Below, piece by piece: positions 29,239-61,067 of a DNA stretch of 64,000 nucleotides. The DNA comes from Amphirosellinia nigrospora. Its lineage: Eukaryota; Ascomycota; Sordariomycetes; Xylariales; Xylariaceae. The DNA lies in contig SCHM01000003.1 of the NCBI GenBank assembly GCA_004123355.1, positions 5,103,058 through 5,167,057 on the forward strand. Reading direction: 5' to 3'. A model generated the notes under the pieces. The model had not been told where the DNA came from and made no database searches. It saw only the letters and a list, made by a program, of their open reading frames with translations. The translations under genes and the position numbers were made by a program. The number at the start of each line of letters is the position of its first letter. Position 1 is the first letter of the stretch.

Positions 29239-29457
29239 GTTACGGGTAGCTAACTAAATATAATAAATATAATAAATATAATAAGTTTTTATAAAACTTA
29301 TTTAAAGTTATATAATTAGCCTTATTATATATATATATAAAATCTTTATAAATAAAATTAGCCGCTAGATCTTAAATCTAGCTTAATATTTCTTGATTAA
29401 TATATAAATAAGACCTTAACTAAAAGCTTTATTTTTATAAAGGACACCAATCGTGAC
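29239..29457. repeat. GTCACG-family repeat, RIP-mutated copy (possible 3' LTR of Gypsy V)
   Basis: Starts GTTACGGGTAGCTAAC and ends ACACCAATCGTGAC. It aligns with the first 220 bp of the pristine element at 31,844, sharing ATTAGCCGCTAGATC and AGGACACCAATCGT. Its position just after the integrase of Gypsy V makes it a candidate 3' LTR, but the matching left LTR was not found and the flanking bases do not give an exact duplication. Confidence 0.6.
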
Positions 29458-33480: not shown

Positions 33481-33833
33481 TTAAGGGCTTCGAAAGCTTC
33501 GAGGCTTTAAGGGCAAAAAAACGCATGATCGAAGGCTTTAAAGGCTATAGAAGCTTCAAAGGCAAAAAAACGTTAATCTAAAGCTATTAACGTAAAAAAC
33601 GCTGTTTTAGGGCTATTAGCACATAAAACGTGTGTTTAAGGGCTACGGAGGCTTTAAGGGCGTAAAAATCGCTAATTCGAAGCTGTTAATATAGAAAACG
33701 CGTGTTCGAAAGCTATAAAAGCTAAAAAGCGTAAAAATCGCTAATTCGAGGCTATAAGCATAAAAAACGCTGTTTTAAAGCTAATAACGTAAAAAACGCT
33801 ATTTTTAAAGGCTATAAAAGCTATAAAAGCTTT
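33481..33833 (+). repeat. GCTTTAAGGGCGTAAAAA minisatellite, left part
   Basis: Degenerate tandem units of roughly 30-55 bp built from three modules: GGCTATAAAAGCTTTAAAGG, GCGTAAAAATCGCTAATTCG and AAGCTATTAACGTAAAAAAC. The array keeps more G and C than its surroundings. It is cut at 33,833 by Copia element I; the last five bases (GCTTT, 33,829-33,833) are the target duplication. Confidence 0.85.
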
Positions 33834-34031
33834 TATTAAATTTAGTGATATGTGTGTATTAATTATTTATATATTACTATTAAGCTTAATTAAAGCATTT
33901 TTAGTATAAATATTTAACGGGAGCACTAGCTACTAGTTAAGCCTTAGCGTACTATTATATATATTAAATAAATAACCTAATAATTTATTTAATATATATA
34001 GCTAAATTATTAATTAGTACGTAATTTAATA
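33834..34031 (-). repeat. Left LTR of Copia I (3' LTR by coding strand)
   Basis: 198 bp. Keeps TTTAGTGATATGTGTGTATT and AACGGGAGCACTAGC; the outer end is mutated (AATTTAATA for AATCCAACA). Flanked on the left by GCTTT. As pol is on the minus strand, this is the 3' LTR. Confidence 0.88.
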
Positions 34032-34576
34032 TACTTTTTAAAAAAAGTAAATTTAGTTATTTTTTTTAAGTTTTAGTTAATAAACGTATAATTTATATAA
34101 ATATAATAAATAAATCGTTTATTAATATATTATAATAATAAATACTTATAACTTATATTTAATATAAATATTATAAAACTAATTATTATTATATAATTAA
34201 ATAAATATAAATAATTATATAAATAATAATTAATTATTTATATAAGTATTAACTACTTTTTTTTTTTTTTTTTTTTATTTTTTAACTATTATAGTTTTAA
34301 AACTTATAAATAAATAATTATACGTATTTATATATATATTTTTTAAATAATAGCTAAATTAATATTAATTTATATATAGTTTAATTAAACAATTATAGTT
34401 TTTAGTATATATTTAATTATTTTTAATAATATATAATATTAATAATTATTAAGCTTAATATTAATATATATTTAATTATTAATATATATAATAAAACTTA
34501 TATTAATTATTATTTTTTTATAAATTTATTTATATTTATATAATTTATTGCTAAATAGCTTAATAGTTTATTTTTA

Positions 34577-34607
<31 letters not shown>

Positions 34608-37600
34608 TTAAGTAAAAAAAATATTTTTATTTATTGCTTTTTATTGCCTTTAGTTTGCTCCGGCCGGCCGATCTAGGTTATATTAAGCACGTAACGCTTA
34701 TAAGGCTTTGTTATTATTACTTTTTATACGCTAGCTCGCCGAGCTTTAGCTATTATTATATAATTACTATTTTTAAAATTATTAGCTTAATATTAAGCTT
34801 TTTAGTATTTTTATTAACTTAATTAAGCAAATAATTTAAATAATATTAGTTTTTATTTTAGTTTTATTAGAATATTCGCTTATTATTATATATTATTATT
34901 ATTATAGCTGCTTTTTTATTATTATTAATTAGCTTATTATTTATATAGTTATAAAATAATATAAGTATTATTACGTTATTTTTTATTTTAAATTAAAATA
35001 TTTATTAGTTCGCTATAAAACTTTATATTTTAATATATTAAAACGTTTTTATAAATTATTTTAATAATAACTATATAAAAATAATTAATAATAAATATAT
35101 TATTAGCGTTATATTTTTAAATACGTTTATAAAAAGTTATAAATAATTTTTTATTTTAATAATTAATAGTTCGTTTAATAATAATTAGCTTTAAAAATAT
35201 TAATAAGTTTTTTATACTTTATATAATATTTTAATTAAACGCGCTATTATTTTTGCTACTATTTTTATTATATGCTTTTTTACTAAGTTTATATGCTGGT
35301 TTGTATTTTATATACTATAGTATATATTTTATTAAAGCTTTTTAAATAAAAAAAAAAAAAAAAAAAAAAAAAATAAAATAAAAAATAAAAAAAAAGTAAG
35401 CCGGTTAAAATTAAGCTCTAGCTATTTAAAATAATTAAATTGCGAGCTTTTTAAATAGTTGGTTTTTTTTTTTTTTTTAAATTATATATAATAGCTTTTA
35501 AAGCTTTAAATAAAAATTAATTAATTTTTTTATTTATATTATAAACGTTTATAATTTAAATTTTAATATTTAATAAATAAAAAATAAAATATAATTAATT
35601 AATAGTTTATTTAGTTAATTTTTGCTTATTAATTAGTTTTCGATTTTTTTTAACGTAAATAATTAGCTTATTAATATTGCTAATTTAATAAATAATTTAG
35701 CTAGCTTTAGTTATTAAAAAAGTATTATTTATTATTAAATAAATAATATTTTAATAAAACTATTAGCGATTATTTTATTAATAAGCGTATATATATTATT
35801 ATTAAAGTTTTATTTTTAATTTTTAGCGTAATTAATAGTTTAAATATTAATATATTATAATTTAATATAAAAAAGCTAATTTTTTAATAATTAGCTTTAT
35901 AGTTTATTAATTATTATATTAAATTTAAATATATTATAAATATAAAGCTATATTAAGCTTAATAATAAGCTTATTAATATATAGTTTTTTAATAGCTTAA
36001 ACTAGCGCTAATAATTTAGCTTTTATAATAACGTTATAACTATTTTATTTATTAGTTTTTTAATTTATAGTTTTATTAAAAAGCTTTATAATATAAGTTT
36101 AAAAGTTTTTTTATTAATAATATTATTAATAAATAATATATTATTAGCTATTATAAAATTATTTTTATTATTAAATTATAATATAGTATTATATAAATAA
36201 TAAATATAAAAATATTTATTTATAGTTTTATAATGCTTAAAAAAAAGTTATAATTAAACTATAATAGCTTAAAAATAATAAACATTATATTTAAACATAT
36301 AATAATAATTATATATAAAATCAAACTTATTTTTATTAATATTATTATATATTTAAAAATAAAGCTATTTTTTATATAAAAATAGCTTATTTGTTTTTAT
36401 TAAAATAATAATATATTATAATGTTTATATTTTAAAGCTTAATAATTTTTTCGATATAAAAAGTTTAAAATAACTATAGTAATTATTTTTGCTTATTTTA
36501 AATTATTTTTATTTTTAAAAACTATTATAAATTTTTATTTTTAATTAATTTATACTAAGATTTTAATATAATAATTATTATATTAGTTATTTTAAAGCTT
36601 TTAAAAATATATATAATTATTATATTATTAATATAAACGAAAATATTTTATTTTTTAAAAAATAATAAATTTATAAAATATTAATTTAAAACTAATTTTG
36701 TTTAATAATTTCGAAAGCTTTTTTTACTAATAAAAAAAACTTTTATAAGTTATAAAAATTTATAATAGTTTAATTATAATATTTGTTTTTTATAGCTAAA
36801 AATATATATATATAAACTTTTTTAATAAATTTATATTAATAAAAATATTTATAATATTATATTATTTAATTTAAAATCGAATTTAATAATATTATTAAAG
36901 TTTTAAATAATTTTTTTATTAAAATATTTATATAAATATTTTTTTATTATAGTTTAGTTTTTAATTTTTATATATTATTAGCCGGGCTTTATTTATTATA
37001 ATATTTATATTTATTAAATTTATATATATATATTTATATATAATTAAAACTAGTTTGTTTAAAGTTAAATTTTTAATATTTTTTTTTAAGTTTTTATTTT
37101 TTAGTAGTTTTATAAATAAATATATTTTATTTATTTAAAATAATTTTTTAATAAATATAAATCGAGCTTTTTATTATTTCGGAAATAAAAATAGATTTTA
37201 ATAATATATATATTTTTTTAAAATAAATTTTTATAAATAACTTTAAAATAATATATTATTAGCTTAAAAATTTTTTTTATTTAGTTATAAGCTTTTATAA
37301 AGTATTTTTTTTTATTTCGTTTAAAGCTTTTTTAATATTTAATATTTATAATCGGGTAAATAATAAATAATAAACTTTTATAAAAATTTTTTTTTTTTAT
37401 TTTATTTAAAGTTTTTATTAATATTTAATATTTATAATCGGATAATAAATAATAACTTTTATAAAAATATTTTTTTTTTATTTTATTTAAATTTTATTAG
37501 TATTTAATATTTACGATTAAATAAATAATAAATTATAAACTTTTATAAAATTTTTTTATAAGTTAATATTATTTTTTTTTATATTTAATATTTAAACTTA

Positions 37601-38642
37601 AATATTATAATATTTAAAAAACTTTTTAATAGTTTAATTTTTTATATTTTAATAGTTATTTTTTATTTTAATAAATAATCCGTATAATTAAACTATATTA
37701 AAATATATAGCTTATAGTTTAATAAATTAATTTAAAATATAAACTTATTTTAATTTTAATATAAATAGCTAAATTAATTATAATTTATATTTAAATTAAT
37801 AAGTTTTAATTATATTATATTAAATTAAATAATATAATTTTTAGTAATTTTAATAATAAAATATATTAAAAAAAATTTTAAATTAATATATAAATAATTT
37901 TTAGCGTATAATTTTTTAAATTGTTTTTTATAAGCTTATTATCGTTTAGATTAGTTTTTTATTCGGTTTAATTTAATAGTTTAATAAAATTTTTAATAAT
38001 AAATTTTTTAGTTCGTTTTTTTTATTTATAAAAAATATTATTATTTTAGCTATATTTTAATAATTAATTTAGTTAATAAATTTTTTATAATTTTTCCGGT
38101 TTATTTTTAAAAAATTATTTTTAAATTTATTTTTATTATTATTAAAAACTTATTTTTATTAAAAATAATATTTTTTATAACAATTATTTATTTTTATATA
38201 ATTATTAAATTTAATAAATATTAAAAAATTAATATTTTATTAAATATTTTATTTAAGCTTTAAAGTCGAGCTTTTTATGTTTTTTTTTTTACGTTTATAA
38301 TAATAATTATAGCAAAAGCTATATATTTATATTATTAATTATAAAATATTTAAAATTTATTTAAAGCTTATATAGCTTTATAAATTATTAAAATATAAAT
38401 AAAACTTTTTATAAAAAACTTTTTAGTTATTAATATAGCAAAAAGTTCGGTTATATAAATAATTATATAATATAAACTATTTTAAGCTATAAAAAATAAA
38501 AAGCTTATATTTATTTTTTATTAAACTTGTTTATTATTTAATAATAGTTTTAATTTATTTTGCTTTTTTATTAAAATTTTAAATATATAATAAAAAAATC
38601 GCAAATTTAATATTATAAATATTTTATATAAGTTTTATTAAT
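34032..38642 (-). pseudogene. Decayed Copia interior of element I, with reverse transcriptase remnant
   Basis: On the minus strand, 36,605-36,638 reads V-Y-I-N-N-I-I-I-I-Y, the Copia active site Y-V-D-D with both Asp mutated to Asn. About 100 bp upstream on that strand, at 36,728-36,757, it reads F-Y-N-L-stop-K-F-F-L-L, matching the fungal Copia L-Y-G-L-R-x-S-P-L-L motif with Gly to Asn, Arg to stop, and Ser and Pro to Phe. Spacing and order are right for Ty1/Copia. The equivalent motifs in element II lie near 48,214 and 48,320. All frames carry many stops. A degraded A-rich run at 35,349-35,395 corresponds to the A47 run of element II. Confidence 0.82.
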
Positions 38643-38940
38643 AATTATACTTTATATATTCGAAAAATAAAGCTTTAATATATATAATATATTGTATATA
38701 AAATCTATAAATAAAGTAAAAAAAAGAAAGTTTAAATTTTTATAAATAGCTGTTTAAATACTCGCGTAAAATAGCTGCATTTATTATTAGTGCTTGCTTT
38801 TATTTATTATATTATATTTACTATAAATAGTAATTACGTATTTATTACAAGTAGTAATTATTATAAGTAAAAATTATAAGTGCTATAGCTAATAGTAAGG
38901 TATAGTTATTAAAGCTTATAGATTTATAACTATTTTTTTT
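38643..38940 (-). repeat. Left LTR of Gypsy IV
   Basis: Fully mutated LTR. Aligns with the right copy at 54,624-54,907, for example GCTTTAATATATATAATATA and the closing AAAGCTTATAGATTTATAAC against GAGCCTGCAGATCCATAAC. Almost all differences are transitions expected from RIP. Confidence 0.85.
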
Positions 38941-41900
38941 CGAAAAAAAATAATTTAACTAAAGTTAAAGTTATAACTGCTTTTTAGCAAAAAAAAAATT
39001 ATTTTAGGTTTTTATTAATATAATTTTTATAAAGTTTTTATACTATTAAATTATTATATTAGTTTTTTTATATTATTTAAAGTTTTTTTGCTTAATATAA
39101 TATTTAAATATATATATATTTATACGTTTTTTTTTTACGTTATTTTTTTTTTATACTATAGCTTTATTATTATTTAAATATAGTTTATTAAATTTGTTTT
39201 TTTATATTATTTTAGCTATATTTATAATTTTTAAAAGTCCAGCTAAATTAAAGTATTATAAAAATTTTTTAATGCTTTTATATTATTTTTAAAGTTTTTT
39301 ATTAAATATTATATATTATTAAAGTTTTAATTTTTTTAATTTATTTAATATTATAACTTTTAATAATAAAGTTAAAATATTTATATTTTTTCGATAATAA
39401 ACTTTTTTTTATTTTTAAGTTTTATTATTTTTTTTTTAAATTTTTATTTTTTAGCCTAATAATAAATTATTAAAGTATTTTTATAATTAATTTATATAAT
39501 AATAATTTAATATTTTTTAAATTATAAAAATATTTAATATAAAAATATTTTTATTTTTTTTATATATTTTAAACTTTTATTAAATTTAAAAAAGTTTAGC
39601 TTATTTAATAAATAGTTTATTTTTTAAAACTATTTTTTTTTTAAAGTTAATATATAATTTTTATATTAAAATTAAGTTTTTATTAATTTTTATTAGCTTA
39701 ATTAATTATACGTTTTTAAATATATTATAAGTTTTTTTTAGCTAATTTAACAAATTATATTATTTTTTTTATTTTTTTTATATATTTATTCGAATTTTTT
39801 TTTTTTTAAAAAGTTTTTATAGCTTTTTATTTACGGTCCGATTTTTTTAGTTAAAATTAAATAATATTAAAAAATTTATTTTAATTTTATAAAATAATAA
39901 TTTTATTAAAGCGTAAAAAATTAACGTTTAAACGTAATTTATAATAAATATACGTTTAAACTAATTATTTTAATAATAATTTATATATAGTTATAATTTT
40001 TAGTTAATTATTTATTTATAATTTTATTTGTTTTATAATTTTATAATATTTTATAATAGCTAGTATATATTTTATTTTATTAGTTTATATATTTATTTAT
40101 AAAAATAAAAATAAATTAAAGTTTATAGTTTAAAGTTATAATTATAAATATTCTAAAAATTTAAAAAGTTTTTTATAATATATTTTAATAATATTTTTAT
40201 AATTATTTTTATAATATAAAATATAGTTTTATTTATTTATTTAAACAGTTTATTATAATTAATATATTAATATATTTATATTTATTTTTTAATATTTGCT
40301 TAAAATTAATAATAAAATAACATTATATGCTTAAATATTAAAAAAAATATAAGTTTACTAAAAGTTTTATTTTTAAATATTTTAATAAGCTTATATTTTA
40401 TATAGTTTATTATATATAATTATAATTTTTATTTAATTTAAACTATTAATAATATTTATAATAAGTTTATATATTTTATTTTTATTAAAATATATAATAA
40501 ATATTTTATAATATGTTTTTTTAATAAAATATATTTTTAAATATAAAAAGTTAAAATAACTAAACGTTTATAAAATATAGTTAATTTATTTTTTAATTTT
40601 TATAAATTTTTTAGTTTATTATTTTTAGTTCGTTAATAATAAATTTTTATATTTATATTTTATAGTTTTTTTTAAAAATTTATTTAATTAATTATAATTT
40701 TATAAAAATATTTAATTCGTTATATATTTTAATAAAGCTTATTTAATATAACTTTATTTATATAAAAATTAATTATTATATTGTTTACTAGCTAAAATAT
40801 TATAAAATAACGTTATATTTTTTTTTAGCTTTTTATATGTTAAGTTTTTTATTTTTATAATAAACGTTAGTTAATATATTATTTTTATTAAAACAATATA
40901 ATATTAAAAAATTATATTTTAAAAAAAAATTAATTTATTTAGCTTATTTTAGGTTAAAATATTATTTTTCGCTAAAAAATTTTAATATTTAATTATTAAT
41001 AAATATTAAAAAAAACTTATTATAACCGCTAATTAATTTAAGTTTTTATTTTTTAAAATATAACGTAATTATTAATAATTTTTATTATAAATATTATAGT
41101 TTAATTTAATATTATAAAATATTTTCGAAAAATATATAAAATATTAAGTTTTATTATATAATTATAATAGTACGCCGGAATTTATACCGTTAAATATATC
41201 GGTTTTAATTTTTATTAATAAATTATAATTAAAATATTTTAATAAAAAAATTTTATTAAAGCTTTTTTAAACTAATAAAATAACTTTTTATTTTTTAATT
41301 TATTTAAAAATATACTTTTTTATATTAATCGGTTTAAAAGCGCTATAATATAATTTTAAATATTAATAAAGTTTTAATAAAATTATAAAATTTTAAAAAA
41401 AATTATATATTTTTAATTAACGTAAAAGTTTTTTATTTTAATATAGCGTTAATTTTAATAAAGTTTATTTAAATTTTTTAATATTAATAATATAGCTTAA
41501 AAATTTAGTTTTAATAACGTAAAATTTAAATTTTTTTAAGTTAATTTATAATTTTGCTTAAATTAATTATTTTAATATATAATATATATAAATAATATAT
41601 TTTTTATTTTTTAAATAAATAATAATATTATTAATATAAATATTATAAAAATTATTTAAAAAGTTAAATAATATATTATTAATATATATTAAAACGTCGA
41701 AAATTTATTAATAAAGTTAAACAATAGTACTAATAATTAATATATATATATTTTATATAAAACGTTATATAATTTTTTTTTTAAATAATATATAAATATA
41801 ATTAAATATTTATTATATATTAAATCGGGTAAAAATTTTTGCTTTAATAATATAAGCTAAAGTTTTTTTAATAAAAAAAAATAAATACTAGTTTTTTTTT

Positions 41901-44900
41901 ATAATTTTATTTAGCTTATAATAATTTATATAAAAGCAAAGCCTATTATTTGTTTTTTTTATAAATAAAATAAATATATTATATAAAATATTATTAAGCT
42001 TAATAAAACTTTTATATAAGTTTTAACTAAGAATTTTTATATAGCTTTTAATTCGTTTAATAATATTTTATATAAAAACTATATTTTAAATCGGCTTTAA
42101 ATTTATTTTAAAAAATTTTATTTTATAGTTTATTTATAAATAATATAATAATAATATATTAAAGTTTATTCGGCTAAAAATATATGCTAAATTTTAATAT
42201 TTTTTAAGTATTTTTTTTATTTTTGTTTTAACTTTTATTTTTATTTTTTAAGAAATTATTTTTATTTTTTTTTAATTTTTTAATTATTTTATCGATTTTA
42301 TTAATACTAATAATATAAACGTTTTTTATTCGGTTTTTTTTATTATTATATTAAAAATAATAATATTTAAACTAAATATTTTAGTTATTAGTTTTTTTTA
42401 TACTAATTAATATTATTTTATTTTATATAATATAAGCTTTTTTATTAAACTTTTAAATAAAAATTAAAGCTATATTTTTTAAATAAATTTTATATTTTTT
42501 AAAAATAAGTTTTAATAAAAACTAATTAAATATCGTTTATTTTATTTTATCGAAGTTTTTTTTTATAAAATTATTATATTTAAAATAAATATTTTTAGTT
42601 TTATATTTTTTAAATATTATTTTATTTTTTATTATTATTAATACTATATTTTTTTAATTTTAAATTATAGTTTTATTAATTAATATTAAATTAATAAGCT
42701 AAATATTATAGCTATATATTTATTTATTTATTATTAAATAATATTTTATATTATAATTAAAAAATAATTAAAATATATTAAATAGTTTTATTAATAATTT
42801 AGTAAAATATTATAATATTTAAATTATAATTTGCTTAAAATAATATTATAAATTAAATCGATAATAATTATAAGTTTATTATTAAAAGTTTTTTATATAT
42901 TTTTAATAATAATAAAAAAGCTTAATTAATATTTTTTTTATTTTACTATTATATTTTATAATTCTTTTAGCAAAAAAGTTATAATAATAATAAAATTAAA
43001 TAGTTTAATAATTTTTTTTATAAATTATTAGTTTATATTTATATATATATTTATTTTTATATTTTTAAAAAAATTATTTATAGTTAAAAAAATTTATTAT
43101 TATATAAAATATAAATATATAATAAAAGTTTTTTATTTAAATATTTTTTTATTAAATTTATTTTATAACTAATAGTATTTTTTAAAAATTTTTTTTTAAA
43201 AAAAAAGCTATTTTTTTAAAATTATTTTTTTTTCTATATTTATTATAAGTTTATTTTTTTATATATTAATTAGTTTAATATTTAATATATTATATATAGC
43301 TAAAATAATAATAATTTAAGCTTTTTTATTTATTAAAGTTTAATTTTTTAAAAAATATTTTTTTAAAATATATTTTTATTAATAATAATTAAAATATTTA
43401 TTAAAAATTATTTAAATAAAAATAAAAAAAAAAAAATAAAAATTATAGCAATAAATTTATATTTTTTTTTTACGAGTTTTATTCCGTTTATAATTAATTA
43501 TTATTAAATAATAAACTATTTAAAAATAATATTTTATATAAATATTAAAATTAATATTTTTTTTAAATATTTTAATATAGCTTTAATTATTAATCGAAAA
43601 AATAGTTTATTTTTAAACTTTTTTTTTTATTTAGTTTTATTAAATCTAGTTTTATTAATTATAAATAAAAATAGTTTAAAATTTAAAAAATTTAATTAAT
43701 ATATATTAATTAAAACTAAATAATTAAAAATTAGCTTTAGTTTTTTTATTATAGTTAATATTAATATAGATTTTTTTAAAATATTTTAAAATAGCTTTCG
43801 AATTAACTAATATATTAAAATAATTAAATAAAAAATAAAAAAAAAATTATTAGCTATATAATTTTTAATATAAGTTTTAATATTAGCTATTTTAGCTATA
43901 TTATTATAAAACTAATTAATATTAAATTTAAAACGATTTTATATAATTTAAATTTATATTTTAAATTTAAATTTATTTTTAATTATATTATTATAAAAAT
44001 AAATATTAATATTTTAATTATATTAATTATTTTTTTTTATTTAATAAAATAGAAATTATTTTATAATAATTTAATAAATTAATTATTTATTAATTCGAAA
44101 TATTTAAATTATTTTAAGCATAATTATATTATTTAGTTATTTTTATAGTTTATTTAATAATTAATTAATAGTTTATTAGTTAGTTTATTATTAACTAAAG
44201 TTATTTTTAATTATAAATTAAAAATATTAATAATATATATTAATATAATATATATTTATTATAAAAAATAATAATTTTATTTTATTTTTTTGTTTAATTA
44301 AATAAAACTTTATTTTATTTATTTAATTTTTTAGCAAATATATATAATTAATAACTAATAATAATAAACTATTATTAAAAAAATATATATTTTATTTTTT
44401 AAAAAATAACAATAAAGTTTTATATATATTATTTATATTAGTTTAGTTTATATTTTTATTAAAATTAAGCTAAATTATTTTATTATATTATATTAGTTTA
44501 AAATAAAAATTAAGCTTAGTTTTTTTTATTTATAATTTTATATAATTATTAACTAAATATTAAATTATATAATTAAAGCTAATAATATTTATATCGAATT
44601 TTTATTTTTTAAATATATAATTATTAATAATATTATAAAACTATTATATTAAATTAGTTAAAAATAATTAGCTTTTACGGCCCGCTATTATAATTTTTAT
44701 ATAGTTTAAAAGCTAAAATAAATATATTTTTTTATTATTTATTAAAGTTTTATTATAAAAAGCTTATTATTTCGAATATTCGAAACAAATAAATCCGAAA
44801 TATTAATAAAAGCTTTAGTATATACGGCCGTACGCGCTTATTATTTTAGTTTATTTTTAAAAAATATTTTAATATTTTTAAATTAAATTAATTATTTAGT

Positions 44901-44965
44901 TTAATTAAAAAATATTATAAAAATAGTTTTAATATTTTATAATATTATAAATAATTTATAAATAG
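38941..44965 (-). pseudogene. Decayed Ty3/Gypsy pol of element IV
   Basis: On the minus strand, 41,627-41,638 reads Y-I-N-N, preceded by N-I-L-F-N-F-L-N-N-F-Y and followed by I-I-I-Y-L-K-N-K-K. This is the Gypsy D-V-L-x-x-F-L-D-D-F ... Y-L-D-D-I-I-I-Y-S region with Asp to Asn changes. Further along, 41,186-41,203 reads T-D-I-F-N-G, the T-D-A-S-x-G start of the RNase H domain, preceded by L-K-K-A. Integrase should lie nearer 39-41 kb and gag above 42 kb; neither was read. The element is dead. Confidence 0.83.
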
Positions 44966-45443
44966 TTACGCTTTGCTTAAGTTTTATAAAAGAAGTACAA
45001 CTAAATAAAAAGAAGGTTTTTTTGTCGAAAAAAAAAAATTTTTAGCTTTATTTCCTAAAAAAAAATTCGGGTACTTTAATTAAGAACTTTTTACTTTTAG
45101 CTATTAATTTAATTTATTAATATATATATTATAATAATTTATATTATATTTATATTATATTTTTAGTTAATTTATATTTATTTTTTAGTTATTTATATTT
45201 TTTATTTATAAGCTAAAAGTTTTATTTATTTAATAACTAATGTTTTTATATTTATATAAAAAAAAGAATTCGGTTTACGATTTTATTTTAGCATTAAAGC
45301 TATTTTTAAAAATAATTATATAAAGTTTTTATTATTATTAAAAAAATATATTTTTAATTTATTAGTTTATTTTAGTTATAATTCTAATAAACTTATAGCT
45401 TTTTAAGAACTTTTAAATAATATTAGCTTTTTTAGCACGAAAT

Positions 45444-45640
45444 TGTTAGATTTAATGATATGTGTGTATTAATCTATCTATATATCGCTACTAAGCTTAA
45501 TTAAGGCATTTCTAGTATAAAGTACTTAATAAAAGTATTAGCTATTAGTTAAGCCCTAGTGTATTACTATATATATTAATAAATAACCAGGTAATCTATT
45601 TAATAATATATAAATAAATTACTAGTTAATACGTAATTTA
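45444..45640 (-). repeat. Left LTR of Copia II (3' LTR by coding strand)
   Basis: 197 bp, keeping the intact TGTTAGATT start. Aligns with 52,469-52,669 and with both LTRs of element I. Confidence 0.9.
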
Positions 45641-46957
45641 ATATACTTTTTTAAAAAAAATAGATTTAATTGCCCTTTTTAAGTTTTAGTTAGCAAGCAT
45701 ATAATCTATATAAATATAATAAATAAATCGTTTATTAATATATATAATAATAAATACTTTATAACTTATATTTAATATAAATATTATAAACTAATTATTA
45801 TTTATAACTAAATAAATATATAATTATATAAATAGTAATAATTAATCTATTTATATAAATATTAGCCGCTTTTTTTTTTTTTTTTTTTATTTTTTAGCTA
45901 CTATAATTTTAAAACTTATAAATAAATAATTACGCGTATTTATATACGCGTACTTTTTAAACAATAGCTAAAATTAATATTAATTTATATATAATTTAAT
46001 TAAATAATTATAAGCTTTTAATATATATTTAAATTATTTTAATTATATATAATATAATAGCTATTAAGCTCGGTATTAATATATATTTAGTTATTAATAT
46101 ATATAATAAAAACTTATATTATATTATTATTTTTTTTATAAATATTATTTATATATATTATTTATTGCTAAATAGCTTAGTAATTTATTTTTATTTTTGT
46201 TTTTATTTTTATTTTTGGGCGAAAAAAATATCCTTGCTCGCTACTTTTTTTATTTTTAGTTTGCCTAGCTAGCTAATCTAGGTCATATTAAACATATAGC
46301 GCTTATAAAGCTTTACTGCTATTATTTTTTATATACTAGTTTATTAAGCTTTAGCTACTACTATTATAATTATTATTTTTAAAATTACTAGCTTAATATT
46401 AAGCTTTTTTAATATTTTTATTAATTTAGCTAAATAAATAATCTAAATAATATTAGTTTTTATCCCGGTTTTACTAAAATATTCGTTTATTATTATTATT
46501 ATTATTATATAGCCGCTTTTTTTATTACTACTAGCTTAGCTTATTATTTAATAATTATAAAAATAATATAAATTATTATTATATTATTTTCCGCTTTTAG
46601 CTAAAACGTTTATTAGTTCGTTATAAAACTTTATATTTTTAATATATTAAAAACACTTTTATAAATCGCTTTTAATAACTATATAAAATAATTAATAATA
46701 AAATATATTATTAACGTTATATTTTTAAATACGTTTATAAAAAACTATAAATAATTTTTTATTTTAATAATTAATAGCTTATTTAATAATAATTAGTTTT
46801 AAAAATATTAAATAAGCTTTTTACGTTTTATATAATACTTTAATTAAACATACTACTATTATTACTGCCGTTTTTTATATATTTTCCCGCTAAGCTTATA
46901 TGCCGGCTTATTGCTTTGCGTACTATAGTGCGTACTTTATTAAAGTTTTCCGGAGTA

Positions 46958-46958
<1 letters not shown>

Positions 46959-47005
<47 letters not shown>
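46959..47005. repeat. A47 homopolymer run inside Copia II
   Basis: An uninterrupted run of 47 A following CGGAGTAC and followed by GTGCCGG. The homologous place in element I (35,349-35,395) is a shorter, interrupted A-rich tract. Flanking bases retain G and C. Confidence 0.95.
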
Positions 47006-47007
<2 letters not shown>

Positions 47008-50000
47008 GCCGGTTAAGATTAAGCTCCGGCTACTTAAGTAATAAAATCGCGGTTTTTAAACAGTTGTTTTTTTTTTTTTTTTAAATTATATATAATAGCT
47101 TTTAAAGCTTTAAATAAAATTAATTAATTTTTTTATTATATTATAAACGTTTATAATTTAAATCCTAATATTTAATAAATAAAAAATAAAATATATTAAT
47201 TATAGTTTATTCGGCTAATTTTCCGCTTATTAATTAGTTTTCGATTTTTTTTAACATAAATAATTAGTTTATTAATATTACTAGTTTAATAAATAGTTTA
47301 ACTAGCTTTAATTATTAAAAAAATATTATTTATTATTAAATAAATAAAGCTTTAATAAAATTATTAGCGATTATTTTGCTAATAAACGTATATTATTATT
47401 AAAGTTTTATTTTTAACTTTTTAGCATAATTAATAGTTATAAATATTAATATATTATAGCTTAATATATAAAAAAGCTAATTTTTTAATAACTAGTTTTA
47501 TAGTTTACTAATTATTATATTAAATTTAAATATATTATAAATATAAGTTATATTAAGCTTAATAATAATTATTAATATATATAGCTTTTTTAATAGCTTA
47601 AACTAGCGCTAATAATTTAGCTTTTATAATAAACGTTATAATTATATTTTATTTATTAGTTTTTTAGCTTATAGTTTTATTAAAAAGCTTTATAATATAA
47701 GCTTAAAAGCTTTTTTTATTAATATATTATTAATATAATATATTACTAGTTATTATAAAGTTATTTTTATTATTAAATTATAATATAATATTATATAAAT
47801 AATAAATATAAAAATATTTTATTTATAGCTTTATAATATTTAAAAAAAAAGTTATAATTAAATTATAATAGCTTAAAATAATAAATATTATATTTAACGT
47901 ATAATAATAGCTATATATAAAATCGAACCTATTTTTTTAATATTATTATATATTTAAAAATAAACTATTTTTTTATATAAAAATAGTTTAGCTTTTATTA
48001 ATAATATATATTATAAATTTATATTTTAAAGCTTAATGATTTTTTCGATATAAAAAGCTTAAAATAATTATAATAGTTATTTTTGTTTATTTTAAATTAT
48101 TTTTATTTAAAAACTACTATAAGTTTTTGCTTTTAATTAATTTATACCGGGATTTTAATATAATAATTGTTATATTAACTAATTTAAAGCTTTTAAGTAT
48201 ATATAACTATTATATTATTAATAAATAAAAATAAATATTTTATTTTTTAAAAATAATAAAGTTTATAAAATATTAATTTAAAACTAATTTTATTTAATAA
48301 TTTCGAAAGCTTTTTTTATTATAATAAAAAAAATTTTATAAGCTATAAAAAGCTTATAATAGTTTAATTATAATATTTTTTTTTATAGCTAAAAAATATA
48401 TATATATAAATTTTTTAATAAGTTTTACGTTAATAAAATATTATAATATTATATTTTTAAATTTAAATTAAATTTATAATAATTATTATTAAAGTTTTAA
48501 ACGATTTTTTTACTAAAATATTTATATAAATATTTTTTTATTATAGTTTATTTTTAATTTTATATATTATTAGCTAAGCTTTATATTTATTATAATATTT
48601 ATATTTATTAAATTTATATATATATATTTATATATAATCGAAAACTAGTTTATTTAAAGTTAAGTTTTAAGTATTTTTTTTAAGTTTTTATTTTTTAGTA
48701 GTTTTATAAATAAATATATTTTGTTATTTAAAATAATTTTTTAATAAATATAAATCGAGCTTTTTATATTATTTTAAAAATAAAAACAAATTTTAATAAT
48801 ATATATGTTTTTTTAAAATAATAGTTTTTATAAATAAGCTTTAAAATAGTTTATTATTAATTTAAAATTTTTTTATTTAGTTTATAAGCTTTTATAAAAA
48901 TATTTTTTTTTTATTTTATTTAAAGCTTTTATTAATATTTAATATTTACGATTAAATAAATAATAAATAATAATTTTATAAAAATATTTTTTTTTTTTTT
49001 ATTTAAAGCTTTTATTAATATTTAATATTTATAATTAAATAAATAATAAATAATAAGCTTTTATAAAAATATTTTTTTTTCGTTTTTAAAGCTTTTATTA
49101 ATATTTAATATTTACGATAATAAATAATAAATCGTAAGTTTTTATAAAAGTATTTTTTTATAAATTAATATTATTTTTTTTATATTTAATATTTAAACTT
49201 AAATATTATAATATTTAAAAAACTTTTTAATAGTTTATTTTATACTTTAATAGTTATTTTTTTATTTATAATAAATAATTTATATAATAACTATATTAAA
49301 ATATATAATTTATAGTTTAATAAATTAATTTAAAAATATAAATTTATTTTAATTTTAATATAAATAATTAAATTAATATATTTATATTTAAATTAATAAG
49401 TTTTAGTTATATTATAAGCTAAGTTAAATAATATAGCTTTTAATAATTTTAATAATATAAATATCTTAAAAAAAAATTTAAATTAATATATAAATAATTT
49501 TTCGGTATATAATTTTTTAAATTGTTTTTTATAAGTTTATTATCGTTTAAATTAACTTTTTATTTAGTTTAATTTAATAGTTTAATAAAGTTTTTTAATA
49601 ATAAATTTTTTAGTTTATTATTTTTTTATTTATAAAAAACGTTAGTTATTATTTTAGCTATATTTTAATAATTAATTTAATTAATAAGTTTTTTATAATT
49701 TTTTCGGTTTATTTTTAAAAAATTATTTTTAAATTTTTTTATTATTATTAAAAAACTTATTTTTATTAAAAATAATATTTTTATAATAATTATTTTATTT
49801 TTACGTAATAATTAAATTTAATAAATATTAAAAAACTAATATTTTATTAAATATTTTATTTAACTTTAAAGTTAAACTTTTTATATTTTTTTTTTTATGT
49901 TTTATAATAATATTATAATAAAAGCTATATATTTATATATTATTAAATATAAAATATTTAAAGTTTATTTAAATTATATAGCTTTATAAATTATTAAAAT

Positions 50001-52468
50001 ATATAAAAAACTTTTTATAAAAAGTTTTTTAGCTATTAATATAATAAAAAGTTCGGTTATATAAAATATTATAATATAAACTATTTTAAGCTATAAAAAA
50101 ATAAAAAGCTTATATTTTTTTTTATTAAGCTTATTTTTATATAATAGTTTTAATTTATTTTGTTTTTTTATTAAAATTTTAAATATATATAAAAAAATCG
50201 CGAATTTAATACTATAAATATTTTATATAATTTTAATTAAATAGTTTTATTTATAATATTTATTATTTGCTATTATATTTTATTATAATTATATTATTTT
50301 TATAATAAAGCTAAATATAATATATATAATTTTTAAAAACTATTTATATAATATTAACGCGTTATTATTAATATAATAATTTTATATTATTTTAAATATT
50401 TATTAATAATTAATATTATTTTTTATAAACGATTATTTTTTATATTAAAGTTATTAAATTCGTAAAAATTAATTATTAACTAAATATTATTAAAAACTTT
50501 AAATTAAGCTTTTTATATTATTTTCTAATAAGCTTTTATAAAACTAATTAATATATTTTATAGTTTTAATTTTATTATTTTTTTAAAAAATAATTATTTT
50601 TTTTTAATATATATTAATAATTATTTTAATATTTAAAACTTATATATTTTAAACGTTAATATTATTTATATATATTAGCTTATAATTAAAAACGTTTTAT
50701 ATAAAAGTTTAAAAAGTTTTTTTAAATATAAAAAGTATATTTTATTAACGTACTAAAAATATTTTATAATAAATTATTTATATATTCGGGTTAATAAATA
50801 TAAAAGCTTTTTTTATTATATTTTAAAAAATCTAAATTAAGTTTATTTTTTAATAAATACTTTTATAATTAAAAACTTATAATAAAATAAAATTAATAGC
50901 TATATTAAAACAAAAAGCTATATTATAAAGCTTATAAACTATAAGTTTTTTTAATCTTATATTTTAATATTAATTTTTTATAGCTATATATTTTAATCGT
51001 TATTATTAGCTAATATTATATTTTTTAAGTTAATATTTTTAAATTTAAAAAATAATTTATTTAATTAAAATATATATATTAATTAAAGTTTATTATAATA
51101 TAATTATATAATATATATAATTAGTAAGCTTTTTATTAATTAAAAAAAGTTATAATATATATTATTAATAGCTATATAAGTTAATTTTTATATTAATTTA
51201 TAAATTAATCGTTAAATTTAACGCGTTTTTTTTTTTGCTAGTTTTTAATATGTTTTATTTTTTTTAACGCTATTTTTATATTATTTATATATAAATAATA
51301 TATTTAAAATAAATATTAGTTTTAAAGTTTTTAAAATAAAGCTTTAAAAAATAAACTAATAGCTTATAATTAAATATTTTTTATAATAACTATATAGTTT
51401 ATTATATTAAGGTTTTTTTTTTAGCTTTAGTTTATATATTTGTTTTAAAGCGTTTTATAAAAATATTTAAAGAATTTTTTTAAAATTATTATATTAGCTA
51501 TTTAATTAGTTTTAAGCTATTTAAAAATATATTTTCGTTTTTAATAAGTTTACTTAGGTTAATTTTTATTAAAATAAGCTAAATAATTTTTATATTTTTT
51601 TTGCTTATTAGTTTTATAAATAATAAAAGTTTTTTTTTAACAATTTTTATAAATATTTATATTATATTTAATATAAAAGCTTTATATTAAAGCTTAATAA
51701 TTATTATTTAATAATTTAAAATATTATTTAAAATTTTATTATTATAAGTTTTTTTTAATAATATAGCTTAAAATAAATTAATATTATATAAAGCTTTTTT
51801 TAAGTTAATTATAAGTTTAAATAATTTAATAATATTTAATTTTTTAATATTTATTTTAATAATTTTATTTAGCTATTTATTAGTTTATTTAGCAAGGTTT
51901 TTAATAAGTTTTTTTATTATAAAACTAATAAACGTTTTATATTATTATAATATTTATATTTAAAAACTTAGCTTATTATTTCGTTAAGTTTTTTTAAATT
52001 ATTATATTATTAATTAAAAGTTTAATAAGTTTTATATAAATTAATTTATAGTTTAAATTTATTATTTTTATATTTATTTAAAAAATTTAATAATTTTGTT
52101 TTAATAAATATTATATTATTTTAAAACAATATTATAGCGTTATTAAGCATTAATATATAAAATTTATCTATTTATTATTAGATTTATTAATATAATAATC
52201 GCTAGATCGATATTTATAAATATAAAAAAATTAAATACGTTTAATACGCTTAGTTTTATAAGCTAAAAAGATTATATTTTTCTTAATTATAAATATTTTT
52301 AAAAATTTTTAAAATTATAAACGTTATAAAGTTTTATTTTTATAATAAAAAGTTTTTAATAAATTAAAAGTTATAACAATTAATATAAATATAATAATAA
52401 TCTTTTAGTACGTATTTTTATAGCTTTATTTTTCGATAAAATATAAAAATTATAATAAAACTTTTAAT

Positions 52469-52669
52469 TATTAGATTTAATAATATATATATATTAATTT
52501 ATTTATATATCGCTATTAAGCTTAATTAAGGTATTTTTAGTATAAAATACTTAACGGGAGCACTAGCCACTAATTAAGCCCCGGCGCACTGCTATATATA
52601 TTAAGTAAACAACCGGGTAATCTATTTAGTAATATATAAATAGATCACTAGTTAGTGCATAATCCAACA
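52469..52669 (-). repeat. Right LTR of Copia II (5' LTR by coding strand)
   Basis: The best preserved LTR of this family, retaining GGGAGCACTAGCCACTA, CCCCGGCGCACTGC and the intact end AATCCAACA. Followed directly by the GAAAT duplication. By coding strand it is the promoter-bearing LTR. Confidence 0.9.
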
Positions 52670-54136
52670 GAAATTTTTCTACTTAAATAAATATATATAT
52701 TTAGATCTTATTATAATTATAGTTTTTATTTAGCATTTAGCGTTATATATAGTTCGTAAAAATCTAATGTTATTTTTTATTTTATAAAGCATTAAAATAA
52801 TTAATTATTAATATTTAATTATATAATAATAACTATTTATTTAGTTTAATATTATAAAATAAGTTTTTATAATAATAGCTATTTTAAATTTTATTAAGTA
52901 CGTTATAAAACATAGCTATAGTTTTAGCATATATAAATAATAAAAACAAAAATAGCTTTTTTTTAAATAAGACGTAATTTATATTTATTATACTTTTAGT
53001 TAGCTTTTATATAGATTTAATTTTATATTTATAATTTTTACTAAAAATCGCTAAATAATAATAATTTATATTTTTTTAAACGTAAAATATTTTAAAAAAA
53101 AAAAACCTAATTATAAAATATTAACTAACTAATACGTTTAAAAACTTTTTATTACAATTAAATAATAATTTAAATATTTATTTATTAGTTTAAATTTATA
53201 AATATATAGTTTTAAAAAATCTTTTAATTATAAATATAATAACAATATTAATTTTATTATTTTTTAACACGTATATATTTAAATAAATATATTTTATTAA
53301 ATAAAAACTAATATATACTATTAAAGTAGCTAATTAAAGCTTGAAATTTTTTAATTAGGCAAAAAATATTTATTTTTTTTAAATTTATTTCTAAAAAGTT
53401 TTACAAAAAAATCTACTAGCTATATAATTTATATTATAAGCAAATCTAAACTAAAAACCGCCCTATTAAATATTATAAAAAGCGCTTATAACGTAAATTA
53501 ATAGCTATATATTTATTTTAAAGCTATTATAATATTATAATATTTTATTTTAAGTTTATATTATTTAGATTTATAGTTAAAATAAAATATTAGCCGGCTT
53601 TAAAAAAGCTTTTATAAATAATTTTACTTTAAAAACTATTTTTAAGCTTATTATTTAATAGTTTAAAAATTGCTTATTTTACTAGGGCCTAATTTAATAG
53701 TACTTAATTCTTGCTATATTTTAAAAGCTTAAATATTAAAGTTTTTTTTTATATAATAATAATAGCTTATTTAAATTTTTTAATATTTATTAAACTATTT
53801 TTTAAAATAACTTTTTTTAGCAAATTAAGCTATAATATTAATACCGCTAATATTATATAGCTAAATTTATTAAATAATCGAAAATAAATATATAATAGTT
53901 CTAAATTAATTATAATAAACGCGGTTTTTAAATTTATAAAGTTTTTTTTTTTAAACGTTTAAACTATTTTAAAGTTTCGCTTAAACGCGTTAGCAAAATT
54001 AAGCTTTTATCGAAAAAAGCTTAAAATATTATAAAAATTAATATATTTTACGAAAAAGTTTACAAACTTTTTCTATAAAAAATCTTTTATTTTTTTTTAA
54101 ATAAAAATAAATAATTAGCAAAAACATAATAGCATT

Positions 54137-54240
54137 ATTAACTAACACTTAAAAAAAGCGTACTTTCGCTATTAACTAACACTTAAAAAAAGCATACTTT
54201 CGCTACTAATTAATACTTAAAAAAAGCATACCTTTACGCT
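54137..54240. repeat. 34 bp tandem repeat, three copies
   Basis: Landmark ACTTAAAAAAAGC at 54,147, 54,181 and 54,215 gives a 34 bp period. Units contain ATACTTTCGCTA. It lies inside the inverted element B copy, in about the place where copies 1 and 2 carry the 78 bp array, but the unit is different. Confidence 0.85.
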
Positions 54241-54623
54241 TTATTTTATTATAGCTAACAAAAAACTATAATTTTAACTTTTAGCTCGAAGTTATAGTTT
54301 AACTATAAAACAATATTATAACTTTATTTTATATAGCTACTATTAATATAACAAACAAATAATATAAATATAAAATTAATTATAATAATTAAATTATAAT
54401 ATATAAATATATTTCATATTTTAACCTAATTATAAAATAAAAAAAGCTATTACAATTAATAATAAATTAAAATAAAATAACAGGTTTAACTATACATAAA
54501 TTATTCGGAAAAACCGAGCTAATATAACTAGCAACTATAATTTATTTACTATATACTTATTAAAATAAATACGTAAATCCTAAAAACTTAAGTATTTTTG
54601 CCCTTAAATTAAAGGGCCTCTAG

Positions 54624-54907
54624 TATATATTTAAAAAAACAAAGCTTTAATATATATAGTATATTATATATAAAATCTATAAATAAATAAAAATAAAAAA
54701 AAGTTTAAATCTATAGTATAAGCAGCTGCTTAAATACTTATATAGGGCAGCTGTATTTACTGCCAGTGCCTGCTTTCATTTACTGCACTGCATTCACTGC
54801 GAATGGCAGTCACGCATTCACTACAAGTGGCAGTTACTGCAAGTGGAAATTACAGGTGCTGTGGCTAGTGGTGGGGCACAGCCACCAGAGCCTGCAGATC
54901 CATAACT
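54624..54907 (-). repeat. Right LTR of Gypsy IV (5' LTR by coding strand)
   Basis: The first half is mutated, the second half (54,730-54,905) retains normal GC, with CTGCCAGTGCCTGCTTTC and GTGGTGGGGCACAGCCACC. It joins the GGCAGCTG of the family's left section directly to the TTTACTGCCAGTGCC of its right section, so it lacks the about 200 bp middle part found in the LTRs of element III. Confidence 0.85.
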
Positions 54908-57164
54908 TTAATTAAATAATTTCGTTTATAATATTTATTAGCTTATTATTATATTTTATTATAATTATATTTTTATAATAAAACTAAATATAATATATAT
55001 AGTTTTTAAAAACTATTTATATAATATTAATATATTTATTATTAACGTAATAATTTTATATATATTTTAAATATTTATTAGTAATTAATATTATTTTTTA
55101 TAAACGATTATTTTTTATATTAAAGTTATTAAATTTATAAAATCGATTATTAGCTAAGTATTAGTTTTAAAAACTTTAAATTAAGCTTTTTATATTATTT
55201 TTTAATAAGTTTTTATAAAATTATATTTAATATATTTTATAGTTTTAATTTTATTATTTTTCGATAAATAATCGTAATTTTTTTAATATATATTAATAAT
55301 TATTTTAATAGTTTAAGATTTATATATTTTAAATATTAATATTATTTATATATATTAGCTTATAATTAAAAATTTTTATATAAAAGTTTAAAAAGTTTTT
55401 TTAAATATAAAAAATATATTTTTATAAGTATACTAAAAAGTATTTATAATAAAATTATTTATATATTTAAATTAATAAGTATAAAAGCTTTTTTTATTAA
55501 TATTTTAAAAAATCCGAATTAAGTTTATTTTTTTAATAAATATTTTTACAATTAAAAATTTATAACAAAATAAAATTAATAGCTATATTAAAATAAAAAG
55601 CTATATTATAAAGCTTATAAACTATAAATTTTTTTAGTTTTTATGTTTTAATATCGATTTTTTATAGCTATATATTTTAATTATATTATTATTAGCTAAT
55701 ATTATATTTTTAGGTTAATATTTTTAAAGTTTAAAAAACGATTTATTTAGTTAAATATATATATTAAATTTAAAATTTATTATAATATAATTATATAATA
55801 TATAATTTAGCAAGTTTTTATTAATTATAAAAAAGCTTATATATATACTATTAATAGCTATATAAATTAATTTTTATATTAATTTATAAATTAATCTTTA
55901 AATTTAACGCGTTTTTTTTTTTTAGTTTTTAATACGTTTTATTGCTTTTTTAACGTTATTTTTAATAATTATTTATATATAAATAATACGTTTAAAATAA
56001 ATACTAGTTTTAAAGTTTTTAAAATAAAGCTTTAAAAAAATAAACTAATAATTCGTAATTAAATATTTTTATAATAAAATTACGTAGTTTATTATATTAA
56101 AGTTTTTTTTTTTAGCTTTAGTTTATATATTTATTTTAAAGCGCTTTATAAAAATATTTAAAAAATTTTTTTTAAAATTATTATATTAGCTATTTAATTA
56201 GTTTTAAATTATTTAAAAATATATTTTTCGCTTTTAATAAGTTTATTTAAATTAATTTTTATCGGAATAAACTAAATAATTTTTATGTTTTTTTTGCTTA
56301 TTAGTTTTATAAATAATAAAAGCTTTTTTTTTAATAATTTTTATAAATATTTATATTATACTTAATATAAAAACTTTATATTAAAGCTTAATAACTATTG
56401 TTTAATAATTTAAAATATTATTTAAAATTTTATTATTATAAATTTTTTTAATAATATAGCTTAAAATAAATTAATATTATATAAAGCTTTTTTTAAGTTA
56501 ATTATAAGCTTAAATAATTTAATAATATTTAATTTTTTAATATTTGCTTTAATAATTTTATTTAGCTATTTATTAGTTTATTTAGCAAAGTTTTTAATAG
56601 GTTTTTTTGCTATAAAACTAATAAATATTTTATATTTGCTTTAATATTTATATTTAAAAATTTAGCTTATTATTTTACTAAGCTTTTTTAAATTATTATA
56701 CTATTAATTAAAAGTTTAATAAGCTTTTATATAAATTAATTTATAGTTTAAATTTATTATTTTTATATTTATTTAAAAAGCTTAATAATTTTGCTTTAAT
56801 AAATATTATATTATTTTAAAATAATATAATAACGTTATTAAATATTAATATATAAAGTTCGTCCGTTTATTATTAAATTTATTAATATAATAATCGTTAA
56901 ATTAATATTTATAAATATAAAAAATTAAATATATTTAGTACGCTTAGTTTTATAAGCTAAAAAGATCGCGTTTTTTTTAATTATAAGTATTTTTAAAAAT
57001 TTTTTAAAATTATAAACGTTATAAAATCCTATTTTTATAATAAAAAGTTTTCTAATAAATTAAAAATTATAGTAATTAATATAAATATAATAATAATTTT
57101 TCGGTACGTATTTTTATAGCTTTATTTTTTAATAAAATATAAAAATTATAATAAAACTTTTAAT
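54908..57164 (-). pseudogene. Decayed interior of Copia I, 5' section
   Basis: Resumes element I after Gypsy IV. Collinear with 50,235-52,468 of element II throughout, for instance AATTTAACGCGTTTTTTTTT at 55,902 and 51,219. By the minus coding strand this should include gag and the start of pol, but no motif was read. Confidence 0.8.
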
Positions 57165-57363
57165 TATTAAATTTAATAATATATATATTAATTTATTTAT
57201 ATATTGCTATTAAGCTTAATTAAAGCATTTTTAATATAAAGTATTTAATAAAAGTATTAGCTATTAATTAAGCTCCGGCGTACTGCTATATATATTAAAT
57301 AAACAACCTAGTAATTTATTTAGTAATATATAGCTAGATTACTAGTTAGTGCGTAATCTAACA
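57165..57363 (-). repeat. Right LTR of Copia I (5' LTR by coding strand)
   Basis: 199 bp, ends AATCTAACA, followed by the GCTTT duplication (57,364-57,368). Retains CTCCGGCGTACTGC. Confidence 0.9.
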
Positions 57364-57777
57364 GCTTTAAAGGCGTAAAAATCGCTAATTTAAAGCTATT
57401 AACGTAAAAAACGTTGTTTTTAAAGGCTATAAAAGCTTAAAAAGTATAAAAAACGCGTATTCGAGGCTATTAGCGTAAAAAACGCTATTTTAAAGCTAAT
57501 AACGCAAAAAACGTTATTTTTAAGGTTTATAAAGGCTTTAAAGGCGTAAAAATCGTTAATTTAAGGCTATTAGCACAAAAAACGCGTATTTAAAGGCTAT
57601 AAAAGCTTCGAAAGCATAAAAATCGCTATTTTAAGGCTAATAACGTAAAAAACGCTATTTTAAAGCTAATAATACTAAAAACGCTATTTTCGAGGTTTAC
57701 AAAAGCTTTAAATATAAAAAAATCGCTATTTCTAGTAAAAAATCGTATTTTTAAATAATTAAATGCTAATTATAGTA
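57364..57777 (+). repeat. GCTTTAAGGGCGTAAAAA minisatellite, right part
   Basis: The continuation of the array at 33,481-33,833, same modules (GCGTAAAAATCGCTAATT, AAGCTATTAACGTAAAAAAC). The two parts were contiguous before Copia I inserted. It decays into AT-rich non-repetitive sequence by about 57,730 and ends at the composition border. Confidence 0.87.
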
Positions 57778-60370: not shown

Positions 60371-61067
60371 TTACACTTCAATACCACATAGTCTCGTGAA
60401 CTCCTCGGCCGATGTGTCAAAGTCCATTACTGCTGCCTCTCTGGCAGCATCTTTCGTTTCTCGCACCAGAGCAGATGCTTGTTTGATGCCACTACCAGAT
60501 GGGATCAGCCAAAAAGACACCTCGGTTCCCAATCGGGCCAGTCTGTCAATGATGCCGTGTAGTTCTTCCCACAGATCCCGATTAGCAACCTGTCTCGCCT
60601 TGCGGGTCTTCCACCGCCGCTTAGCCCAGGACGCTAGCCATCTTGTCGCTCCGAAGACGACGTACTCGAGATCTGTGGCAACAACGATCCGATTCCAGCC
60701 CTCTTCTTGCCATTCTCGAACTCGAGCGCTGCAATCACAGCCCGGAGCTTGACGCGATTGCTGCTGGCGACGTGATACTCGCCCCCGGGCCTGTTTGCTC
60801 CAGTGGGAATCCAACCGTGCCGCCTTCAAGCTGATCTATGGCAGAGAAAGGGAAAGTGGTGGTTGTACCCAACCTTCCCGCGCCCTTGTAGGCGAAGCTA
60901 CAGCCGCCCATTGATGGCTGTGAAATGCTACCGTTGTTGATACAGCTACCGTCAACCACAAGGAGGATCTCACGGCTATCGTAGCGATTCACGAAGCGAG
61001 GTTGAGATGTACGAGTAAATACAGTCTGCAAGGGAAAATGTTCCTCTGGGGTTGCGTCTGGGCTCAT
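60371..61067 (-). pseudogene. RNase H-like gene, broken by two frame changes
   Basis: RNase H-fold proteins cleave RNA in RNA-DNA hybrids, using a D-E-D-D set of metal-binding residues. Reading from a Met at 61,067 (M-S-P-D-A-T), the first frame gives I-L-L-V-V-D-G-S-C-I-N-N-G (first Asp) and G-G-C-S-F-A-Y-K-G. Around 60,759-60,725 the family's T-S-N-R-x-E-L-R-A-V-I-A-A-L helix is present only in a different frame as N-R-V-K-L-R-A-V-I-A-A-L, so the catalytic Glu is Lys (GAG to AAG). The third frame continues R-E-W-Q-E-E-G-W-N-R-I-V-V-A-T-D-L-E-Y-V-V (second Asp) to the stop at 60,371, including W-K-T-R and N-R-D-L-W-E. Two frame changes plus a lost catalytic residue indicate a pseudogene. An open frame extends upstream to 61,217 but looks less protein-like. 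It does not look like retroelement RNase H, since no RT is adjacent. Confidence 0.82.

Follow-up and report, generated by a model that had tools for sequence, protein, structure and literature searches.

A nest of three LTR retrotransposons and a Helitron-like element in AT-rich DNA of Amphirosellinia nigrospora

In the genome of Amphirosellinia nigrospora (48.1 Mb in 11 contigs), a stretch of 64,000 nucleotides (the window; contig C5, positions 5103058-5167057) contains transposable elements that lie within one another, and the question raised by this locus is in which order they arrived and whether this order can still be read from strongly mutated DNA. The original prediction described a minisatellite interrupted by a Copia element (I), which is interrupted by a Gypsy element (IV), which carries an inverted element B, which in turn is interrupted by a second Copia element (II). 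The nest is real, and its boundaries, target-site duplications, empty sites and order of containment can be read directly from the genome sequence. It is very probably the product of four successive transposition events (I, IV, B and II), with B probably belonging to the Helitron2/Helentron type.

Architecture of the nest and its duplications

The two parts of element I are separated by IV, with B inside IV and II inside B (Table 1). With the inserts left out, I comprises 7,260 bp, IV 6,616 bp, B 2,418 bp and II 7,226 bp. In a self-comparison of the window, positions 33836-38641 of I aligned to 45446-50240 of II at 88% and positions 54902-57364 to 50227-52670 at 90%; since both pieces of I match II, the latter indeed serves as an uninterrupted template for I. 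Element B is inverted relative to two B-like copies located at 19456-21043 and 25275-26856 of the window.

Five-base duplications are the product of the staggered cut made by integrases, and letter-perfect ones flank each of the three elements with long terminal repeats (LTRs): GCTTT around I, TTAAT around IV and GAAAT around II. The outer pair coincides exactly with the predicted limits of the nest, 33829-57368. Four levels had been said to be resolved by duplications; this applies to I, IV and II, whereas B is not accompanied by a duplication. Two random 5-mers agree with a probability of 0.0149 in the AT-rich part and of 0.0125 in the minisatellite, so that each duplication alone is modest evidence. 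The empty-site tests described below are the stronger evidence.

Exact duplications are thus present in heavily mutated DNA, as had been emphasized, but they are not remarkable, since seven of ten other Copia copies of the genome also keep exact duplications, the remaining three being one transition apart. These ten were hand-picked for the presence of both ends from 20 fetched Copia stretches (fetched stretches are designated by L numbers; L013 and L024 may likewise have been eligible), and of all ends matching the terminal motif the best pair was taken. The site hit by IV reads TTAAT in nine of 18 copies, CTAAT in six, and TTAGT, CTAGC and CTAGT in one copy each. Judged from these readings, TTAAT on both sides of IV is probably a mutated state, which may have preceded the arrival of IV or have arisen twice; the motif holds no C or G left for mutation.

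Table 1. Positions of the nested parts within the window
Feature	Position	Strand	Remarks
Minisatellite, left part	33490..33833	+	Last bases are the duplication GCTTT (33829-33833); array uninterrupted in L039 and L040
Copia-like I, first part	33834..38642	- (putative coding strand)	Last five bases TTAAT (38638-38642); match to element II; domain match in sister copy L020
Gypsy-like IV, first part	38643..44974	-	LTR, internal region and 11 bp of the other LTR
IV LTR	38643-38931		AATTATAC...ATAACT
IV other LTR, initial 11 bp	44964-44974		AGTTACGCTTT
Element B (HINE-like), 5' part	44975..45443	+	Terminus GCTTAAGTTTT; last five bases GAAAT (45439-45443)
Copia-like II, complete	45444..52669	-	TGTTAG...CCAACA, 7226 bp; LTRs of about 200 bp
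Element B (HINE-like), 3' part	52670..54623	+	First five bases GAAAT (52670-52674); end CTCTAG at 54623
B subterminal repeat	54583-54592		AAAACTTAAG
B short inverted repeat	54600-54617
IV, remainder of the LTR split by B	54624..54907	-	End ATAACT
Copia-like I, second part	54908..57363	-	Starts with TTAAT (54908-54912); LTR end CTAACA at 57363
Minisatellite, right part	57364..57760	+	First bases are the duplication GCTTT (57364-57368)

Empty sites and the order of insertion

Each element was excised in silico by joining two short flanks, with the duplication kept once, and the joined sequence was aligned to uninterrupted copies in the genome. For all four insertions the flanks rejoined into sequence that is uninterrupted elsewhere in the genome. 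After removal of IV from I, 13 of 18 copies were gapless at the join, defined here as no gap within 12 bases of it, and the other five showed one to four gapped positions; the 18 rows comprise element II and 17 of the 20 fetched Copia stretches, leaving out L009, in which the copy stops short of the site, L014, which lacks letters next to the site, and L016, which is interrupted at the site itself. Removal of B from IV, with one T kept, yielded gapless alignments in four of seven rows (all six fetched IV copies and the partial copy in L022) and a single gapped position nearby in the other three, and removal of II from B was gapless in all three fetched B stretches. When the joins for IV, B and II were shifted by 1, 2, 3, 5 or 10 bases either way, the mean score was lower every time and no copy was gapless, except that for IV two of the shifts each left one gapless copy among 18. 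When I was removed from the minisatellite, the alignment to L039 had no gap at the junction and scored highest without a shift, and the best matches of the left and right minisatellite flanks overlap by exactly 5 bp in both L039 and L040. Exact duplications together with empty sites (for the minisatellite, the empty array in L039 and L040) hence confirm the interruption of the minisatellite by I, of I by IV and of B by II, and the presence of an inverted B in IV is borne out by the empty IV copies and by its orientation relative to the B-like copies elsewhere in the window.

Containment plus the empty sites yields the order minisatellite, I, IV, B, II. This order stands as proposed originally, although the duplications as such, to which it had been attributed, are not its basis. 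According to this order, the minisatellite would first have received I, a Copia-like LTR retrotransposon, and I would then have been entered by the Gypsy-like LTR retrotransposon IV. The next arrival would have been B, a non-autonomous element of the Helitron2/Helentron type, which entered between two Ts, 11 bp into an LTR of IV, and left its target unduplicated; finally, a Copia-like element of the same family as I (II) would have integrated into B. The LTR elements would leave 5-bp duplications and B, of the rolling-circle type by its ends, would leave none. The enzymes involved and the rolling-circle movement of B are inferred, as is the separate movement of each element instead of a joint one in ready-made composites.

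Containment alone would also be compatible with a composite Helitron in which B already contained II when moving, so that the insertion of II would predate that of B into IV, and Helitrons can carry foreign DNA. An element B moving with II inside might leave other B/II junctions, and the uniqueness of the II/B and B/LTR junctions was examined. The full II/B junction was spanned at one of 40 scored places (of 103 candidates), namely at this locus; one other row extends 33 bases beyond the junction (query 1-164, 83%) and was taken as chance. Likewise, the B/LTR junction was spanned fully only here, seven B rows going 19-89 bases beyond it before they stop. Since there is no second full B/II junction among the scored places and three B copies are uninterrupted at the II site, the composite is considered very unlikely. 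Even less probable is a misassembly caused by similar repeats. The sequence is highly repetitive, but all junctions coincide with element termini and show the duplication or T|T expected there, and exact duplications at three insertions together with clean empty sites at all four are not what a misjoin should produce.

Several observations weigh against the successive insertions or fail to reflect them. The window's own, more diverged minisatellite units do not separate the shifts, the right-hand units scoring 235 unshifted versus 237 at +3 and the left-hand units 154 whether unshifted or at -2. Transversions between the LTRs of a pair (1/195 in I, 0/196 in II and 5/289 in IV) do not confirm the order, and the higher value of IV compared with I is contrary to it, albeit not significantly (Fisher p 0.41). 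Because the transversions are too few (0, 1 and 5), the LTR clock gives no order, and it was rejected as a means of dating the layers. The GC content of the layers (I 0.097, IV 0.089, B 0.139, II 0.107) does not follow the proposed ages either, and base composition was rejected as an age indicator.

At another locus (L022:521-7659), a Copia copy lies inside an LTR of IV, with the duplication ATAGC, so that the nesting is reversed relative to the window; the Copia family was therefore active before and after IV elements landed.

Identity of the elements

Direct LTRs, TG...CA ends and a 5-bp duplication, the hallmarks of LTR retrotransposons, were found in both I and II, which belong to the same family; the first bases of I (TATTAA) are changed from G to A. 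The domain basis for the designation Copia-like is one SH3_retrovirus match (PF25597) on the minus strand of the sister copy L020 (E 5.8e-5; 23.4 bits, below the cut-off of 27), with none on the plus strand of L020. On the other side, the coding signal is nearly gone, no domain was detected in the three minus-strand frames of II or in three frames each of the sister copies L019 and L015, and RVT_2 gave 16 rows in the genome, none of them at the Copia copies among the matches listed.

For IV, affiliation with the Ty3/Gypsy group is indicated by a mid-element RNase H (RT_RNaseH_2 type). The match in L029 has an E value of 0.0093 and 16.4 bits, below the cut-off of 29.8, and the corresponding region of IV was placed arithmetically, from L029 and other copies, at about 41050-41290. 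Among the 44 RT_RNaseH_2 rows of the genome, at least four occupy this position in IV copies: two of them exceed the cut-off and are situated about 3.8 kb from an LTR of IV (C10:478208 and C4:4546630), while two stay below it and adjoin the piece at 41300 (C4:3860624 and C6:352178). RVT_1 gave 32 rows in the genome, none of which could be placed in an IV copy. The LTR of IV lacks the canonical TG...CA ends and runs AGTTAC...GTAACT, partly mutated here; its ends are fixed by TTAAT in the window and by TTAAA/TTAAG, one transition apart, in L029. Of the two original labels, Gypsy is thus sustained by RNase H in several sister copies, and Copia by the below-cut-off match described above.

Element B is flanked by two Ts and lies 11 bp into one of the IV LTRs. 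Since it adjoins this LTR, and since the inverted copies at 19-29 kb of the window are roughly collinear with IV, it could be regarded as a normal internal part of IV. However, six IV copies and one partial copy pass from the internal region at 44974 directly into the LTR at 54624, and B copies exist without an LTR of IV and at other sites, for instance in L035 inside another IV-type internal region. The query 53500-54908 splits near its position 1125, with B copies matching one side and IV LTR copies the other; B and LTR parts match different genomic places, and B is a separate repeat family. The distance from the piece at 41300 to the IV LTR is 3.7-3.8 kb in six paired copies versus about 6.1 kb here without II (hand arithmetic). 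An internal region of IV beside its LTR was rejected for B on account of the empty sites, and the probability left to this explanation is negligible.

The 5' end of B starts with GCTTAAGTTTT, the preceding T being that of B or of the target, and the 3' end consists of CTTAAG(T/C)ATTTTT, a short inverted repeat GCCCTT...AAGGGC and CTCTAG. The inverted repeats are asymmetric, with GCTTAAGTTTT at the 5' terminus and AAAACTTAAG(C/T) 31 bp before the 3' end. A T precedes all eight 5' ends that continue like B; the loose pattern used also matches many unrelated AT-rich places, and a match in L027, preceded by C, was dropped. A T also follows 18 of 19 distinct 3' ends, including one counted after a one-base shift in L036, and in the exception, L041, the LTR of IV starts immediately afterwards (21 rows, from which L006 as a repeat of L035 and L051 as a repeat of L027 were removed). 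A genome-wide search for the 3' end pattern, allowing up to three mismatches, gave 138 occurrences and none of its reverse. In one further stretch (L036:2271-4694), two B-type elements are arranged head to tail and have one T in common at their junction.

Because of the absence of a target duplication, the T/T site, the asymmetric inverted repeats and the CTAG end, B looks like a non-autonomous Helitron2/Helentron of the HINE kind. As far as described in the excerpted source (PMC4067079), HINE/DINE-1 elements share with B the asymmetric subterminal inverted repeats near both ends, a 3' palindrome, insertion at TT and the non-coding nature. Mite HINEs have repeats of 12-15 bp, the 3' one located 38-60 bp from the end, and a palindrome 8-35 bp from the end, whereas B has an 11-bp repeat 31 bp from the end and a palindrome 6 bp from the end, and differs additionally by weak folding and its CTAG end (PMC4067079). 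The FoHeli elements of Fusarium oxysporum, in the part of the report considered (PMC5148889), are likewise fungal, of the Helitron2 type and equipped with asymmetric terminal inverted repeats, with non-autonomous forms of 830 and 1929 bp. In contrast to the CTCTAG of B, their 3' ends read ATTTT or CTCCTGT, and the sites preferred by FoHeli1 and 2 follow TNAT, unlike the T|T of B (PMC5148889).

The features that tell against a Helitron-type B would suit a miniature inverted-repeat transposable element (MITE) or another DNA transposon. The 3' hairpin folds weakly, since in five copies 15, 39, 71, 82 and 125 of 200 shuffled sequences reach an equally good fold, and the spacing of the 3' repeat and palindrome is outside the ranges for mite HINEs given above. 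Protein evidence for B is lacking: no Pfam domain was found in six frames of the B copy L036, and the Helitron Rep domain (Helitron_like_N) gave no match in the genome, where the controls likewise remained without a match. PIF1 gave three rows in the genome. Moreover, the overlap of a single T might be regarded as a very short duplication. Conversely, the inverted repeats are asymmetric, the 5' one being terminal and the 3' one internal, the element ends in CTAG and inserts between Ts, a duplication is never longer than one T, and the general layout is that of HINEs (PMC4067079). A MITE or other DNA transposon is on balance unlikely, and B is a probable HINE family, with the 138 recognisable 3' ends including relatives of B.

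Mutation, a shared target site and related nests

The GC content, determined in 2-kb steps, is 5 to 23% across the first 57 kb of the window and about 47-52% in its last 5-6 kb. In the AT-rich part, CpA and TpG are scarcer, and GpC and CpG more frequent, than its base composition would predict. Between Copia copies the C-to-T change predominates and is highest at CpA, which was the most changed 3' context in all six copy comparisons; L020 and element II differ by 559 changes from C/G to T/A, 187 in the reverse direction and 59 transversions. An excess of C-to-T change in repeats with preference for CpA is the mark of repeat-induced point mutation (RIP), and all layers of the nest look degraded by change of this type, as in an ascomycete, RIP as a process being deduced from the pattern. 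DNA methylase matches occur at three genomic places. In element II and five sister Copia copies compared with L020, GpC is spared from C-to-T change (0.32-0.43 changed versus 0.66-0.79 at TpC), which fits the many AGCT left in the sequence. The GC-rich end of the window contains, on the minus strand, fragments of an RNase H (60371-60829; PF00075, E 7.1e-8) and of a GDSL lipase (63023-63523; PF00657, E 6.1e-5).

A Copia copy on contig C4 (L053:3110-3200, L016:5420-5510) is interrupted at the same five bases as I (window 38600-38660 and 54895-54950). The insert belongs to a different LTR family, V, although the LTRs of IV and V both start with AGTTACG. The junctions read ...TTTTACTAGT followed by the LTR starting AGTTACGGG and, on the other side, ...CGTAATA followed by CTAGTTAAATAG. 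The letters allow a cut up to two bases further to the left, TACTAGT being common; CTAGT, the five bases hit by IV, is favoured as the duplication because the V end in the window reads ...CGTGACA. Based on about seven interrupted Copia copies, a number taken from a rough reading of the fetched stretches, a rough after-the-fact estimate gives a probability of about 0.3% that, among seven insertions spread uniformly over 7.2 kb, two coincide at a base. Chance may explain the coincidence, and so may a shared origin of IV and V within a single ancestral Copia copy. It is a rather doubtful possibility that IV and V share a precise target preference, in which case LTR elements of this type, without a TG start, might be directed to one particular position of a host transposon.

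Family V is also represented in the window itself at 24288-29431, in a stretch that is interrupted by the B-like element at 25275-26856 and that is uninterrupted there in L016. A second nest at 16730-24286 consists of a copy of the IV family (AGTTACG...GTAACT) with exact CATAA on both sides and the other B-like element inside.

In Mycosphaerella graminicola, 78 nested transposon clusters of 7.5-63 kb were reported, some of them with more than one level (PMC4522978). As far as the excerpted report goes, these clusters resemble the present one in the insertion of LTR retrotransposons within LTR retrotransposons, in GC-poor blocks with RIP-like change and in 5-bp duplications, verified there for the base elements; unlike them, the nest described here contains one Helitron-type level and has a paralogous empty site for each level (PMC4522978). 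Among the papers listed for nested LTR elements under RIP, for Helitrons under RIP and for relative dating by nesting, none was recognised as describing this case, which is no proof of absence.

Such nests are already known in fungi, and the present one is ordinary except for its probable Helitron-type third layer. This layer and the site shared by IV and V are the parts worth keeping. While the understanding of nests is unchanged, a probable HINE family is added for a fungal genome, and the locus represents a clean worked case in which the order of insertion in strongly mutated AT-rich DNA was obtained from paralogous empty sites where LTR dating fails.

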